Source: a virus. From it: 25,389 nucleotides of DNA. The notes beneath the pieces were generated by a model. The model was given only the letters and a program-made list of their open reading frames with translations. It was not told the origin of the DNA and searched no databases. This document shows positions 1-5,840 of this stretch, one piece after another (the first letter of the stretch is position 1; the number at the start of each line of letters is the position of its first letter). The position numbers and the translations under genes are program-made. Location: positions 1 through 25,389 of IMG/VR virus record IMGVR_UViG_3300031660_000055; one strand, given 5' to 3'.

Positions 1-2158
1 GCACAAAATTAGGTGCTACTGCGTTTTTCATTCTTAGAGCGTCAGTTAAATCAGTCTCAGTATTAATACGAGGTTTAATAACTTCTCCCATTAACATTGC
101 TTTAACTCTTTTAGATTTCATTTCAGGGTAACTTTGAAATATTGGAAATCCAACAGGCGTAGACCAAGTAATTGGTAACTGCTCTTTAGAGATAATTTTA
201 GCAATGTCTTGTAGGAATTTCATACCACTCCTAGCAGACATTAAATTATCACCTATACTGTCCCAGATAATACCAGATAAATAACTGGCAGGTTTAAACA
301 TATCATTTTCAAATGGGTGCTGTTCACCTTTGTCTTTTCTTTTAGTTAAATCTTCTACAACAAAATCTGTGCAAGAAAATCTAGTAGAACCATAACAGAT
401 AGTCATAATACTTCTTTTAGTAGTAGTACGTTTAACTCCATAGTTTAACCATGCTTGTGCATAAGGTTTACCTTCAGCTACATCTAATTTAAGTTTTGCG
501 TTAACTGTATTTGCTACTAATTGGTAGATGTCTTGCGGTGTTTCTGTCGGTAATAAATTTACCATCTCTCCTGCTTTTTTATCTTTAAGCATTAAAGAAT
601 AAATTTGAAGACCATTACATGAACCATCAACATTGACAGGTATGTATGAAATAAAACCTTCTCCTTCTTTAAGGTATCTAGCCCACTCATCACAAAATGC
701 TAAAAATTGAAAAGCATTCCCTGCGTTTTCCCATTGTCTATTAGTCAAAGGGTCTTCCGCACAAGCTACAATCATAGCTTCATTGTCTTTAGTCCACTGC
801 TCTCTTTGTTCAAATGTTATTTTATCTTCTCCATACATGTTTGCACCATGTACTGCTAACCAAAAGACACCTCTGTTTTCCACAGTGATAGGCTTACCTT
901 TGGCAAAATTCAGTAGTGCTTTAGAAGCACCAATAGATTGATAGTTAAGAAACGCAGGAACACAATAGGCTCTTCCTCTAAAGTCTAATTGTATTGGAAA
1001 ATATAAAGTAGCAAAATCTTTAAACTTATCTGCTAACCAAATAATTTTAGCAAACAATAACCTTTTAGAAAACATACGGTTATTCTCTGTGTGAATTATT
1101 ACAGCTTCTTTTTTCCACGCCTTCCTGCTTACTTCGTTTGTATCAATATCGTGTGGTTTGTTAGGTATCTCTTTGTTGCTAGTTGAGGGCATTTCTCCTA
1201 GTGCCATGCCTTTGTCCCAAGCCTGTTTAATCACATTTAAAATAAAATGATTAATCTTGTAAGATGTAGATTGCATAGCATTAACAGCACTATAAACCTT
1301 CGGCATTTCAAAGTTTTCTAACTCTTTTTGAAACAATTTCTTGCCTAAACCATGTTGTTTAACAAGGTCTAGTTCAGGGAGGTTATCTGTCCAATAACCG
1401 CCTCCTCGTGTGCTTTCCCATGATTTAGGAGGCATTACAGTAGGCATATACTCAGGGTTGAGTAGTTCATTAAAGGTATTTCTCTCTTTAATCCAATCTC
1501 TAGTTTTCTGGGTCTGTTTAATGACTTTAGTTTTCTTATGCTTAACAGTCTCAGTTTTAATCTCTATCATTCCTGTGGCATATATCATTAGTTCAATCAA
1601 ACGTAGTCCAACGTGTAATTTCTCTGTTGTACTCCATTCTTCCCATCTCATTACTTCGTCATTTTTGGCAGTCTCTTTTAGCTTCCTTCGTTTGTAAGTA
1701 TAATTCCAACTTCTTCTATCTAAGTCCTGACGCACTGTGTGGTATAACTCTGGGTTCAATATCTTAAAGTTTTTTAGTGCTATTTCAGTTTCTACTTTAC
1801 CACCTAAAGTGATGCAGGTAGCAGTGAGAGGTCTGTTTTGGGTAATTGTATTTATGATGGATTTTGCGGTAATGAGAGCCAGAATTTCAGGTTCAACTTC
1901 GCATATTTTGATGAAGGCAAGAGGTGGTTTTTTAACAATGTTTTTTGATGTAGTCTCAATCCACTCAGCTATCTCCATAGCGAGAGGTCTAATAGTATTT
2001 GCAACCATTACCTTTCCGTAAGAGGTAACGCTTTCTTCTTCTCTAGTGATGTGTGATTGTAGCCTCGTGTTCGTCCTGTGAACGCCTGAGAGAGCCATGT
2101 CTTTCTCATTGGCTAGTTGGTCTTTGAATGTAGGTAATACTTCTATTAGCTTCTGCAT
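1..2158 (-). CDS. T7-like single-subunit DNA-directed RNA polymerase (3' end missing)
   Basis: This gene transcribes the phage middle and late genes from phage-specific promoters. I translated it by hand: 719 complete codons, starting MQKLIEVLPTFKDQL, with AGGAG 7 nt before the ATG. It follows T7 RNA polymerase throughout. A PPKSWESTRGGGYW stretch matches the T7 PPKPWTGITGGGYW region. The DxxGR motif is LDFRGRAY near residue 392. Motif A is NVDGSCNGLQ with the catalytic Asp near residue 511 (T7 D537). Motif B is TKRSIMTICYGS with Lys near 581 and Tyr near 589 (T7 K631 and Y639). The window ends in APNFV, just before the T7 HSQDG motif with the second catalytic Asp, so roughly 70 residues are missing through window truncation, not damage. 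It follows the integrase gene and has its own phage-type promoter 41 nt upstream, which suggests positive autoregulation. Confidence 0.97.
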   Translation of the reverse strand, partial: MQKLIEVLPTFKDQLANEKDMALSGVHRTNTRLQSHITREEESVTSYGKVMVANTIRPLAMEIAEWIETTSKNIVKKPPLAFIKICEVEPEILALITAKSIINTITQNRPLTATCITLGGKVETEIALKNFKILNPELYHTVRQDLDRRSWNYTYKRRKLKETAKNDEVMRWEEWSTTEKLHVGLRLIELMIYATGMIEIKTETVKHKKTKVIKQTQKTRDWIKERNTFNELLNPEYMPTVMPPKSWESTRGGGYWTDNLPELDLVKQHGLGKKLFQKELENFEMPKVYSAVNAMQSTSYKINHFILNVIKQAWDKGMALGEMPSTSNKEIPNKPHDIDTNEVSRKAWKKEAVIIHTENNRMFSKRLLFAKIIWLADKFKDFATLYFPIQLDFRGRAYCVPAFLNYQSIGASKALLNFAKGKPITVENRGVFWLAVHGANMYGEDKITFEQREQWTKDNEAMIVACAEDPLTNRQWENAGNAFQFLAFCDEWARYLKEGEGFISYIPVNVDGSCNGLQIYSLMLKDKKAGEMVNLLPTETPQDIYQLVANTVNAKLKLDVAEGKPYAQAWLNYGVKRTTTKRSIMTICYGSTRFSCTDFVVEDLTKRKDKGEQHPFENDMFKPASYLSGIIWDSIGDNLMSARSGMKFLQDIAKIISKEQLPITWSTPVGFPIFQSYPEMKSKRVKAMLMGEVIKPRINTETDLTDALRMKNAVAPNFV

Positions 2159-2446: not shown

Positions 2447-3325
2447 CTAACTAGCTTTGTTAAAACTGTTAAGTACATTTACTGCGTCTCGCAAATTACT
2501 AGGTATTAAATGCGAATACCTACTAATCATTTTCCATGACTTATGACCTAGCATTTGACCAATAAAGTGAAGTTCTACTTTACCTGATTGAGCCATACGA
2601 GTTGCACAAGTATGTCGTAAGCAGTGAATGACAAACTCTTTGTCTTCTTCGAGGTTCATTGCTTTTCTTAGTCTTCTCCAAGTATTCTCACAAGTCCAAT
2701 ATTTTAGATGTGAAAATATAAGGTCGTTTCTTCCTACCGCTTTTTTAAGTAACTTCTCAACGATTAACTTGGCACGTTCTGTTAACGGTACACCTCTGGG
2801 CATATTGTTTTTAGTTACCGTAGTAGGTAAATTAACAACATAATGACCATCTACATTGTGTATCATTAGCTTCTTAATAGATAACGCTTCGCCTAACCTC
2901 ATTCCGCTATCGGTGAGAAAAAGATAGAACTCTAAATAATCAACCATATTCCACTCGGTCAATGTTCTAATCATTTCTTTTTCTTCGATTGGTTCAAGGT
3001 ATCGTTCTCGTCCATTGTTACTTTCGTCCTGCCACTCAATATGAGGCATTCTATCTAAATGATAAATAGAATGTCTTTGATTGGCATAACGTAACATCTT
3101 ACTGATTGAGGACATATAACGATTGATAGTAGCAGGAGCAAAACCCCTGTTTTCTAACGTGTCCACAAGATGTTCTATGTGGCTATCGTTAACTTCAGTT
3201 ACAAGCATACCTTTGCCAAGCATTTCTATTATTTTTTCGCCTCGCTTTGATTGCAACTTTTCCCAACCTCTAAGTGTTAATTTGCGGTGTATCTCCGTTA
3301 GCAACTTGATATTTGTCTGTTGCAT
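2447..3325 (-). CDS. int: Tyrosine recombinase / phage integrase
   Basis: A site-specific recombinase of the phage integrase (tyrosine recombinase) family, 292 aa, expected to join attP with a host attB. The N-terminal part (about residues 5-90) looks like a SAM-like core-binding domain. All catalytic residues are visible: R143 (SGMRLGEAL), K172 (TVTKNN), H234 and R237 (HCLRHTCATRM), H261 (LGHKS) and Y270 (SRYSHLIP). The length is normal for the family and the frame is intact, so an active enzyme is expected. It begins 18 bp after the MarR-like gene, with AAGG about 9 nt before the ATG, so the two probably share a transcript. RNA polymerase follows after 288 bp of structured sequence. An integrase just before RNAP is the arrangement described for temperate T7-like pelagiphages. 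Confidence 0.95.
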   Translation of the reverse strand: MQQTNIKLLTEIHRKLTLRGWEKLQSKRGEKIIEMLGKGMLVTEVNDSHIEHLVDTLENRGFAPATINRYMSSISKMLRYANQRHSIYHLDRMPHIEWQDESNNGRERYLEPIEEKEMIRTLTEWNMVDYLEFYLFLTDSGMRLGEALSIKKLMIHNVDGHYVVNLPTTVTKNNMPRGVPLTERAKLIVEKLLKKAVGRNDLIFSHLKYWTCENTWRRLRKAMNLEEDKEFVIHCLRHTCATRMAQSGKVELHFIGQMLGHKSWKMISRYSHLIPSNLRDAVNVLNSFNKAS

Positions 3326-3343: not shown

Positions 3344-3670
3344 TTATTTGACCATATCAGTAAGAGAATTATATACTCTTCTGCCTTTTGCTGAAATACG
3401 CACAAGTTTTCTTCTACGTTCTTCAGGGTCTTCAAAAGATTGTAAAAGACCTATACCAATACCGTCTCGTGTTCTGTCACCTAATTTGTAACAGTTACGA
3501 GATACGGTTGATTGGGCTAAGTCCAATTTGTCAGCTATTGTCTGCATGGCGATACCGTCTGCTCCGCCATACTCACCAACATAAAAGAAAACCGCTATTG
3601 TTTGGCTTTCCATATGTGGGTCGAATTTACGCATTTCCTCTATTATTTTTAATAGGTTCAATCCGCTCAT
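3344..3670 (-). CDS. MarR-like winged-helix transcriptional regulator
   Basis: A 108-aa protein whose centre and C-terminus fit the MarR winged helix-turn-helix fold. A helix-turn-helix lies at about residues 40-65 (TIADKLDLAQSTVSRNCYKL). The wing contains EDPEERRRKLVRISAKGRRV (about 80-99), which follows the family pattern of an acidic DPxxRR turn followed by basic residues and a K-G-R end. It is shorter than typical 140-aa MarR proteins and lacks part of the N-terminal dimerisation helices. AGGAG lies 8 nt before the ATG. It sits directly upstream of integrase in the same direction, so it may control integration or lysogeny in place of a CI-type repressor, of which none is visible. A palindrome in its upstream region could be its operator. 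The target is inferred. Confidence 0.82.
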   Translation of the reverse strand: MSGLNLLKIIEEMRKFDPHMESQTIAVFFYVGEYGGADGIAMQTIADKLDLAQSTVSRNCYKLGDRTRDGIGIGLLQSFEDPEERRRKLVRISAKGRRVYNSLTDMVK

Positions 3671-3780: not shown

Positions 3781-3810
3781 AGTATAGTTAATCTATAACA
3801 CATACAACCT
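3781..3810 (-). promoter_or_regulatory. Candidate promoter and operator of the MarR-int operon
   Basis: TATAGTTAATCTATA (3783-3797) is a perfect 5-5-5 inverted repeat. On the transcribed strand it overlaps a -10-like TATACT (3786-3781), with a weak TTGTAT 15 bp upstream. An 8-bp palindrome ACTATAGT lies nearby at 3827-3834. MarR proteins bind such short palindromes, often over their own promoter. The location, about 110 bp before the start codon, fits autoregulation, but the promoter match is weak. Confidence 0.35.
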
Positions 3811-3934
3811 ATATTTTCCAAAATCTACTATAGTTTCGTGTGTGTCTTTCGTTACTCTAAAATCACTCCGTCTATTATATTTTTCAATATAAAGTTTAAA
3901 GAGAATAAAGTTTATAAGCATATTCGTCCTTTTG

Positions 3935-4148: not shown

Positions 4149-4209
4149 GCAAAATACACCGTCTAGTCATTAGACAGTGTTTCGGCTATTAAAGCCTCGT
4201 CAGTTTTGC
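4149..4209 (-). ncRNA. Type I hammerhead self-cleaving ribozyme overlapping a gene's 3' end
   Basis: On the transcribed strand, in order: stem I 3' strand GCAAAA (4209-4204); core CTGACGA (4203-4197); stem II GGCT/AGCC with loop TTAAT (4196-4184); GAA (4183-4181); stem III of 10 bp, ACACTGTCTA/TAGACGGTGT, with one G-U wobble and loop ATGAC (4180-4156); cleavage nucleotide A (4155) in a GUA site; and stem I 5' strand TTTTGC (4154-4149), pairing 6/6 with GCAAAA. All conserved hammerhead positions are present. Predicted cleavage is between 4155 and 4154. The ribozyme body encodes the last 15 codons of the 60-aa gene, and its TAG stop (4165-4163) lies in stem III, so a translating ribosome would unfold it. 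Confidence 0.9.
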
Positions 4210-4345
4210 TTTTTATAATTCCATTTAGTTTTCCTTTCTTTGGTTTTTTAGATTTCTTACCGAAGATACCTTCCCAATTCTCTTTGAATTTCTCTGTGGG
4301 AAGGTGGACACCGTCTCTTATTTTGTATGAGTTAAACCCTGACAA
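4163..4345 (-). CDS. Small basic early protein (60 aa), TTG start, ends inside a ribozyme
   Basis: Not recognised. The protein is hydrophilic, with a Lys-rich centre (GKKSKKPKKGKLNG, about residues 29-42) that could bind nucleic acid. No ATG or GTG is available in frame. A TTG at 4345 is preceded by GAGG with 6 nt spacing inside the upstream gene, and the two genes overlap by 14 bp, so translational coupling is likely. The last 15 codons form most of the type I hammerhead described at 4149-4209. The coding frame and the RNA fold must therefore be maintained together. Confidence 0.65.
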   Translation of the reverse strand: MSGFNSYKIRDGVHLPTEKFKENWEGIFGKKSKKPKKGKLNGIIKSKTDEALIAETLSND

Positions 4346-4561: not shown

Positions 4562-4589
4562 CACCGTCTAGTCCTAAGACCAAACGGTG
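4562..4589 (-). terminator. Strong 12-bp hairpin upstream of the 65-aa gene
   Basis: CACCGTTTGGTC and GACTAGACGGTG pair over all 12 positions (two G-U wobbles) with loop TTAG. A moderately T-rich stretch (AGTTTATTTTAAAC) follows. It could be a weak intrinsic terminator or a processing site. Plus-strand CACCGTCTAGTC (4562-4573) is repeated exactly at 4157-4168, in stem III of the type I hammerhead, which suggests common origin. Confidence 0.5.
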
Positions 4590-5377: not shown

Positions 5378-5752
5378 TTAATGTTGTTGAGGTTTAAAGT
5401 CTGGAGCAATAATTCCAAATCCGCCCCAATCTTTTTGAATTGTTTTGTCTTTGCTAAAGTCTTCAAAAAACTTCAAAGCGTAGCCTCTAGCGTCTCCATT
5501 AAAAAACATATTGAATGTATTAGTGTTCAATATCTTAGCAACTTTTGAAAGTATCTTTTCACTTTCTTTGTCTATGTCGCCTTCAAAGTCTCCGTTGCAA
5601 TAGTCAGTTGCTAACTTGTGGGCTTTGTTTTCTAATCTAAAAAGTTTTTTGCAAAGTTCGATACTATCTATATCAAGATTGAAAATACTTTTTAAAGTGT
5701 CGCCATGCTTCTTAATGTTTTGATACATTGTTTGTTTTTCGTGTCCCTTCAT
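5378..5752 (-). CDS. First early protein, unknown function (124 aa)
   Basis: Not recognised. It starts MKGHEKQTMYQNIKKHGDTL and ends in GIIAPDFKPQQH. It is a soluble, helix-rich, acidic/basic mixed protein with no signal or membrane segment. The ATG at 5752 has GGAG 10 nt upstream, within a CA-rich leader. It is the first gene after the genome-end region, comparable to the position of T7 0.3-type host-takeover genes, and the RNA just upstream folds as a type III hammerhead. After cleavage its mRNA would start with a 5'-hydroxyl and an 81-nt leader. Function unknown; role inferred from position only. Confidence 0.75.
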   Translation of the reverse strand: MKGHEKQTMYQNIKKHGDTLKSIFNLDIDSIELCKKLFRLENKAHKLATDYCNGDFEGDIDKESEKILSKVAKILNTNTFNMFFNGDARGYALKFFEDFSKDKTIQKDWGGFGIIAPDFKPQQH

Positions 5753-5781: not shown

Positions 5782-5840
5782 GTTTGTTTCGGACTGAAAT
5801 TCTGTGTCCTCGTCAGTGACGTATTAAACGCCAGACAAAC
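5782..5840 (-). ncRNA. Type III hammerhead self-cleaving ribozyme in the leader of the first early gene
   Basis: On the transcribed strand, in order: stem III 5' strand GTTTGT (5840-5835); cleavage C (5834), giving a canonical GUC site; stem I TGGCGT/ACGTCA with loop TTAAT (5833-5817; 6 bp, one G-U); core CTGACGA (5816-5810); stem II GGAC/GTCC with an 11-nt loop (5809-5791); GAA (5790-5788); and stem III 3' strand ACAAAC (5787-5782), pairing 6/6. Every conserved core base is present. Predicted cleavage is between 5834 and 5833, about 81 nt before the start codon of the 124-aa gene. The 3' strand of stem III merges into the CA-rich leader with the ribosome site. Activity is unmeasured, but a chance match this complete is very unlikely. 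Confidence 0.92.

Follow-up and report, generated by a model that had tools for sequence, protein, structure and literature searches.

The stretch of DNA analysed here (the window, 25,389 nucleotides) is a 25-kb record of a T7-like Pelagibacter phage (Pelagivirus). Phages of this group infect SAR11, the ocean's most abundant bacteria; the closest annotated relatives of the window are HTVC019P, Jormungand, HTVC201P and HTVC022P. On the minus strand, a series of small early genes is followed by a 42-aa ORF, a MarR-type regulator, an integrase and the start of an RNA polymerase gene (Table 1). The match of the regulator to PF13463 falls below the cut-off, no relative of the integrase was found in GTDB genomes, and in homologues the gene after the integrase carries an RNA polymerase annotation. 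At the place of the 42-aa ORF, HTVC131P, HTVC304P, HTVC048P and S35-C6 have an annotated 129-nt CDS. Searches of PHROG and Pfam with the product of the 60-aa gene gave no match.

Table 1. Genes and RNA elements of the window, in order of coordinate.
Feature	Coordinates	Strand	Remarks
Phage RNA polymerase gene, truncated by the window's left end	2..2158	minus	open 719-aa frame
Tyrosine integrase	2447..3325	minus	PF00589, E 9e-22
MarR-type winged-helix regulator	3344..3670	minus	homologues annotated MarR (HTVC019P, others)
42-aa ORF between type I ribozyme and MarR gene	3793..3921	minus	
Type I hammerhead, whole motif	4149..4209	minus	core, fold, chance level, CM R1
Stem I, 3' strand UUUUGC	4149..4154	minus	
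Predicted cleavage site GUA^U, between 4155 and 4154	4154..4155	minus	position 17 = A, canonical hammerhead
Stem III hairpin, 10 bp, 5-nt loop	4156..4180	minus	96.5% of cells paired, 32 relatives
Core GAA	4181..4183	minus	invariant among relatives
Stem II GGCU-UUAAU-AGCC	4184..4196	minus	compensatory variants in relatives
Catalytic core CUGACGA	4197..4203	minus	N7 the sole variable position in 32 distinct relatives
Stem I, 5' strand GCAAAA	4204..4209	minus	pairs with 4149-4154
60-aa early gene	4163..4345	minus	homologues in 16 phage records
124-aa gene, first of early block, after type III hammerhead	5378..5752	minus	
Type III hammerhead	5782..5840	minus	predicted cut between 5834 and 5833; kept in other pelagiphages with altered stems

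The minus strand from 4209 to 4149 is a canonical type I hammerhead with a strict core. It reads GCAAAA CUGACGA GGCU UUAAU AGCC GAA ACACUGUCUA AUGAC UAGACGGUGU A UUUUGC, and forms three helices around the core, stems II (4 bp) and III (10 bp, one of them G.U) being closed and stem I (6 bp) open; CUGANGA and GAA, the A15.1-U16.1 pair and A17, which obeys the H17 rule, are all in place. The original prediction of a full type I hammerhead with 6/4/10-bp stems and a GUA site was thus accurate in every element, and the minimum-energy fold is exactly the hammerhead (-20.4 kcal/mol, z = -4.9, 0 of 200 shuffles). Within a transcript context of 141-251 nt, the mean pair probabilities of the helices are 0.71-0.99. 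A hammerhead descriptor with this core matched 28 times in 100 Mb of simulated sequence (first-order Markov, with the window's composition), with a maximum of 16 stem pairs; the window's copy has 20. Its CM R1 score is 89.4 bits, the window itself being in the training set. In a search for a known hammerhead family, as proposed with the prediction, RAGATH-1-hammerhead (RF03152) was the sole Rfam hammerhead family to match, but it scored 28.6 bits where the gathering threshold is 56.3, so that by this score the window's copy is not a member. It shares the type I layout and the core with RF03152, whereas the extra 5' hairpin of that family is poorly matched and stem II has 4 bp. A sixth, terminal G-C pair of stem I in 48 of 48 copies and a loop II that is mostly UNNNU are suggestive of a contact between stems I and II.

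Conservation was assessed in 62 IMG/VR loci gathered via the MarR protein, together with cultured phages; 61 loci with more than 700 nt ahead of MarR were counted. The position originally given to the element, at the junction of the early genes with the MarR-integrase-RNAP message, holds well beyond the window: of the 61 loci, 48 carry a hammerhead at a distance of 365-510 nt ahead of MarR (44 type I and 4 type II), the place being conserved even when the ribozyme type switches. Five further loci have a version in which U.U replaces the first stem II pair. In eight MarR-bearing relatives, the cultured HTVC048P, HTVC105P and HTVC121P among them, no hammerhead could be detected at that place; the ribozyme is therefore not essential in all.

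In an alignment of 32 distinct relatives, 98.3% of pair cells are kept, as compared with 32-46% paired in slid controls, and double changes occur at six pairs as compared with 3.2 in shuffles, none of 500 shuffles reaching six. Stem I is GTTGTA/TACAAC in five distinct relatives, amounting to four compensated pairs, and stem II has the compensatory variants GGUU/AACC and GACU/AGUC; position 17 is A or C across the wider pelagiphage set. All three types occur among the hammerheads of relatives, which number at most five per relative and always precede MarR; two loci (L206 and L207) have five each, of all three types, inside 2.3 kb. In the complete genomes of HTVC019P, S35-C6, HTVC201P, HTVC304P and Jormungand, convincing hammerheads are confined to the coding strand of the early region. 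The predicted cut sites of HTVC019P fall inside positions 972-1028 and 2948-3008 of its record. Rfam gathering scores overlook them: no hammerhead was reported in the four relatives searched (HTVC019P, S35-C6, L158 and L206), which hold two to five.

The U.U change puts TTGG/CCAT in stem II in place of the core-adjacent G-C (L152 4198-4258, L154 3942-4002, L192 901-961), and a type III copy near 1953 in L154 has TTGC/GCAT. From its sequence, the U.U hammerhead is possibly a natural core-adjacent variant.

The hammerhead shares its letters with the end of the 60-aa gene. It includes 14 full codons (KTDEALIAETLSND) and two bases of the fifteenth, followed by UAG at 4165-4163, in stem III and eight nt ahead of the predicted cut; the overlap, the stop and the 8-nt spacing had all been foreseen, although the full codons number 14 rather than 15. 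The ORF starts with TTG in the window and ATG in the near-identical L149. Its N-terminal part is under purifying selection (pN/pS 0.19), which indicates that the gene is real. Within the overlap, pS falls to 0.21 from 0.57 in the N-terminal part, so synonymous change is suppressed there, the point that the originally proposed codon-level comparison was to check; untranslated copies are nevertheless just as conserved, with diversities per codon position of 0.062/0.148/0.156 in 11 translated ribozymes and 0.049/0.135/0.135 in 11 untranslated ones, so the constraint is not linked to coding. Where stem II has changed with compensation from GGCU/AGCC to GGUU/AACC, two residues of the protein differ (A to V and A to T). 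These comparisons indicate that selection keeps the RNA, not the peptide tail.

The overlap had been interpreted as a switch, in which ribosomes at UAG hold the ribozyme unfolded and cleavage follows once translation of the 60-aa gene stops. The overlap is real, and with UAG in the A site, the ribosome would sit over both stem III and the cut site. Nevertheless, the arrangement is labile and missing from most pelagiphage relatives: the stop is the stem III UAG in 15 rows and lies 14-436 nt upstream, outside the ribozyme, in 33. Frame and stop position also vary. In L161, a 60-aa-type gene stops at the core UGA rather than at the stem III UAG, and other upstream genes stop at the core UGA in L167, L199, L202 and L177; on the MarR-integrase tree, the overlap state changes about 10 times, a count that recombination could inflate. 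Neither the equal diversity of translated and untranslated copies nor the two residues altered by stem II compensation points to constraint at the protein level. Furthermore, four relatives with U.U at the first stem II pair keep the frame and the ending 'KSKTDDW...PSKD' with its stop, a protein end retained without the full pairing, which comes close to the refuting case named with the original prediction. As a conserved mechanism the switch is not supported by these sequences, and we regard it as improbable, while transient masking by a terminating ribosome may occur in single cases.

Contact between ribosomes and hammerheads appears common in other phages. A 24-base pattern retrieved more than 119 IMG/VR contigs, most of which hold type I hammerheads, between two and five in some of them, and 137 distinct hammerheads were considered, with mechanical calls of an upstream ORF (at least 60 aa and a Shine-Dalgarno-like motif). 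The stop of the upstream ORF lies inside the type I hammerhead in 45 of the 137; for the 103 whose neighbours could be measured on either side, it is inside or no more than 20 nt away in 72. The contigs may share ancestry, and these counts are descriptive. All three frames are used about equally, and the stops end at ribozyme positions 1, 6, 10, 20 and 21. Because the stop falls inside about a third of the phage type I hammerheads examined, in any frame, it is conceivable, albeit doubtful, that phage hammerheads generally respond to whether the preceding gene is being translated. If so, terminating ribosomes would delay folding and tie mRNA cutting to the end of translation, and the copy in the window, with UAG in stem III, would be one form of this. 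Frame 2 gives TDEA or TEEA tails, coded by the hammerhead core, on unrelated proteins (among the IMG/VR contigs L027-L145, e.g. L097, L114 and L080); three of nine tested upstream proteins with such tails match PHROG families. The tails call for caution in inferring function from them, and offer an easy handle for finding more hammerheads.

The conserved element could also be a terminator or an RNase III-type hairpin, with its likeness to a hammerhead secondary. Stem III forms a strong hairpin with UAUUUU after it, and its ACTAGACGG arm is shared with terminator-like hairpins of the early region. A terminator, however, needs neither the core letters nor stems I and II, which are conserved or co-vary, and the same place is occupied by another hammerhead type in some relatives. 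The U-run is replaced by UAUACAAC in five distinct relatives and is lost while the core and stem I are kept; on this ground the terminator was rejected, and the hairpin reading as a whole is very unlikely.

A scan for all three types revealed a second, type III hammerhead in the window, 29 nt ahead of the 124-aa gene. It has the core, an open stem III and closed stems I and II, and it is conserved with altered stems that are compensated in relatives (GTTTGT/ACAAAC and GGTTGT/ACAATC; TGGCGT/ACGTCA and TGCAAT/ATTGCA; GGAC/GTCC and GGCG/CGCC). Five matches in 100 Mb of simulated sequence equal its 16 pairs, so that about 0.003 would be expected on both strands of the window. Its minimum-energy fold in isolation is a different one, and the assignment therefore rests on conservation. 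In a sample of pelagiphage loci, 16 of 17 type III motifs lie 16-29 nt before a start codon, and most type I and II motifs lie at or just past a stop, a placement that fits a mirror-image division of the ribozyme bodies between the cut products.

The motif, its conservation and covariation, its fixed position and its neutrality towards coding were observed directly, and hammerheads in these phages lie at gene junctions on the coding strand, often several per block. We think it likely that the type I hammerhead cuts the early polycistronic transcript in cis, parting the early block from the MarR-integrase-RNAP message. Cleavage would fall eight nt past the stop of the final early gene, so that no gene would be lost from the early mRNA and both sides would be translatable. 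The early mRNA would end in the folded ribozyme, with its stem III hairpin and a 2',3'-cyclic phosphate, and the downstream message would begin with a 5'-OH; the cut, its timing and its effect on mRNA stability are inferred. The type III copy would trim the 5' end of the early block, its body remaining as the leader of the downstream gene. Overlap with the coding end would then represent compaction: each of the three frames of the ribozyme contains a stop, and a gene that enters it therefore terminates inside, harmlessly.

In T7, RNase III cuts the early mRNA, a transcript of the host polymerase, between cistrons, leaving 5'-phosphate and 3'-OH ends. The type III/type I pair would be the counterpart of these sites, sharing with them the intercistronic cuts in the early transcript of a T7-like phage; the T7 cuts, in contrast, are protein-catalysed, and hammerhead ends would be 5'-OH and cyclic phosphate. 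Of 20 partial SAR11 genomes, 11 were found to have RNase III, so a host alternative for processing exists. LUZ100, another T7-like phage, transcribes MarR and integrase together from a host promoter of their own (PMC10134795); by analogy, the MarR and integrase genes of the window may have a promoter of their own, making the cut less important, in which case read-through RNA may be the main substrate of the ribozyme.

A further possibility, that the type III/type I pair frees the early block and its 5'-OH and cyclic-phosphate ends are joined into a circular mRNA, appears extremely unlikely. The order of types around the block would leave both ribozyme bodies on the excised piece, but the two ends have little complementarity, and Perreault et al. 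(2011, PMC3088659) report that spliced or circular products were sought for other phage-type hammerheads and not found. Circularization by RtcB was rejected, no RtcB ligase being found in the 20 SAR11 assemblies, which are incomplete (RNase III was seen in 11). It is equally hard to credit that the element is a remnant that recombination has spread, inactive or just tolerated, as mosaic early regions, relatives without a hammerhead and the five with core-adjacent U.U might suggest, given the strict core conservation, the compensatory changes and the suppressed synonymous change.

Processing of the early transcript by hammerheads has precedents. Hammerheads flanking phage or prophage genes were proposed to process polycistronic phage RNA, and for those tested, self-cleavage was shown both in vitro and in E. 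coli (Perreault et al., 2011, PMC3088659). The hammerheads of that study resemble those described here in their core, in comprising three types, in occurring several per gene block and in lying near integrase genes, with ardA a neighbour. Here, however, they occur in T7-like SAR11 phages at a fixed place before MarR, with cleavage predicted, and one type I copy encodes the end of a protein; stop codons within ribozymes are not described in the accessible text of that paper. HHphage of haloviruses HF1 and HF2, as presented there, resembles the type III copies in being an early-region element placed 13 nt ahead of a start codon, but is a variant hammerhead of archaeal viruses. HDV-like theta ribozymes of gut phages are also self-cleaving phage RNAs, of another ribozyme class and tied to suppressor tRNAs (PMC10879173). 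The biological role of prokaryotic hammerheads has been called an open question (PMC6155905), and none of the papers that we searched was found to describe hammerheads in pelagiphages. What sets the element apart is the hosts in which it occurs, its fixed position and the stop codons that it overlaps. Since phages with hammerheads spaced along their early region are in culture (HTVC019P on HTCC1062), the proposed mRNA processing is testable.

Other features of the early regions were noted. An unannotated 64-aa GTG ORF (L013 2119-2313) overlaps the 3' end of the 60-aa family, has the core UGA as its stop and is conserved in L158, L166, L173, L176 and L189. The window contains six terminator-like hairpins on both strands, as compared with 1.7 expected, three of them on the minus strand of the early region (5232-5202, 4680-4650 and 4593-4558). 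A role for the dispersed ACTAGACGG as a phage promoter was unsupported, since in HTVC019P its exact copies occur only in the early region. The AGGACTAGACGGYG motif is dispersed in pelagiphage early regions, at 4562-4575 and 4157-4170 (minus strand) in the window; its sites include terminator-like hairpins, the 60-aa gene family (KGLDGE) and hammerhead stem III, and it is repeated in L154 3527-3692. It may mark recombination boundaries.
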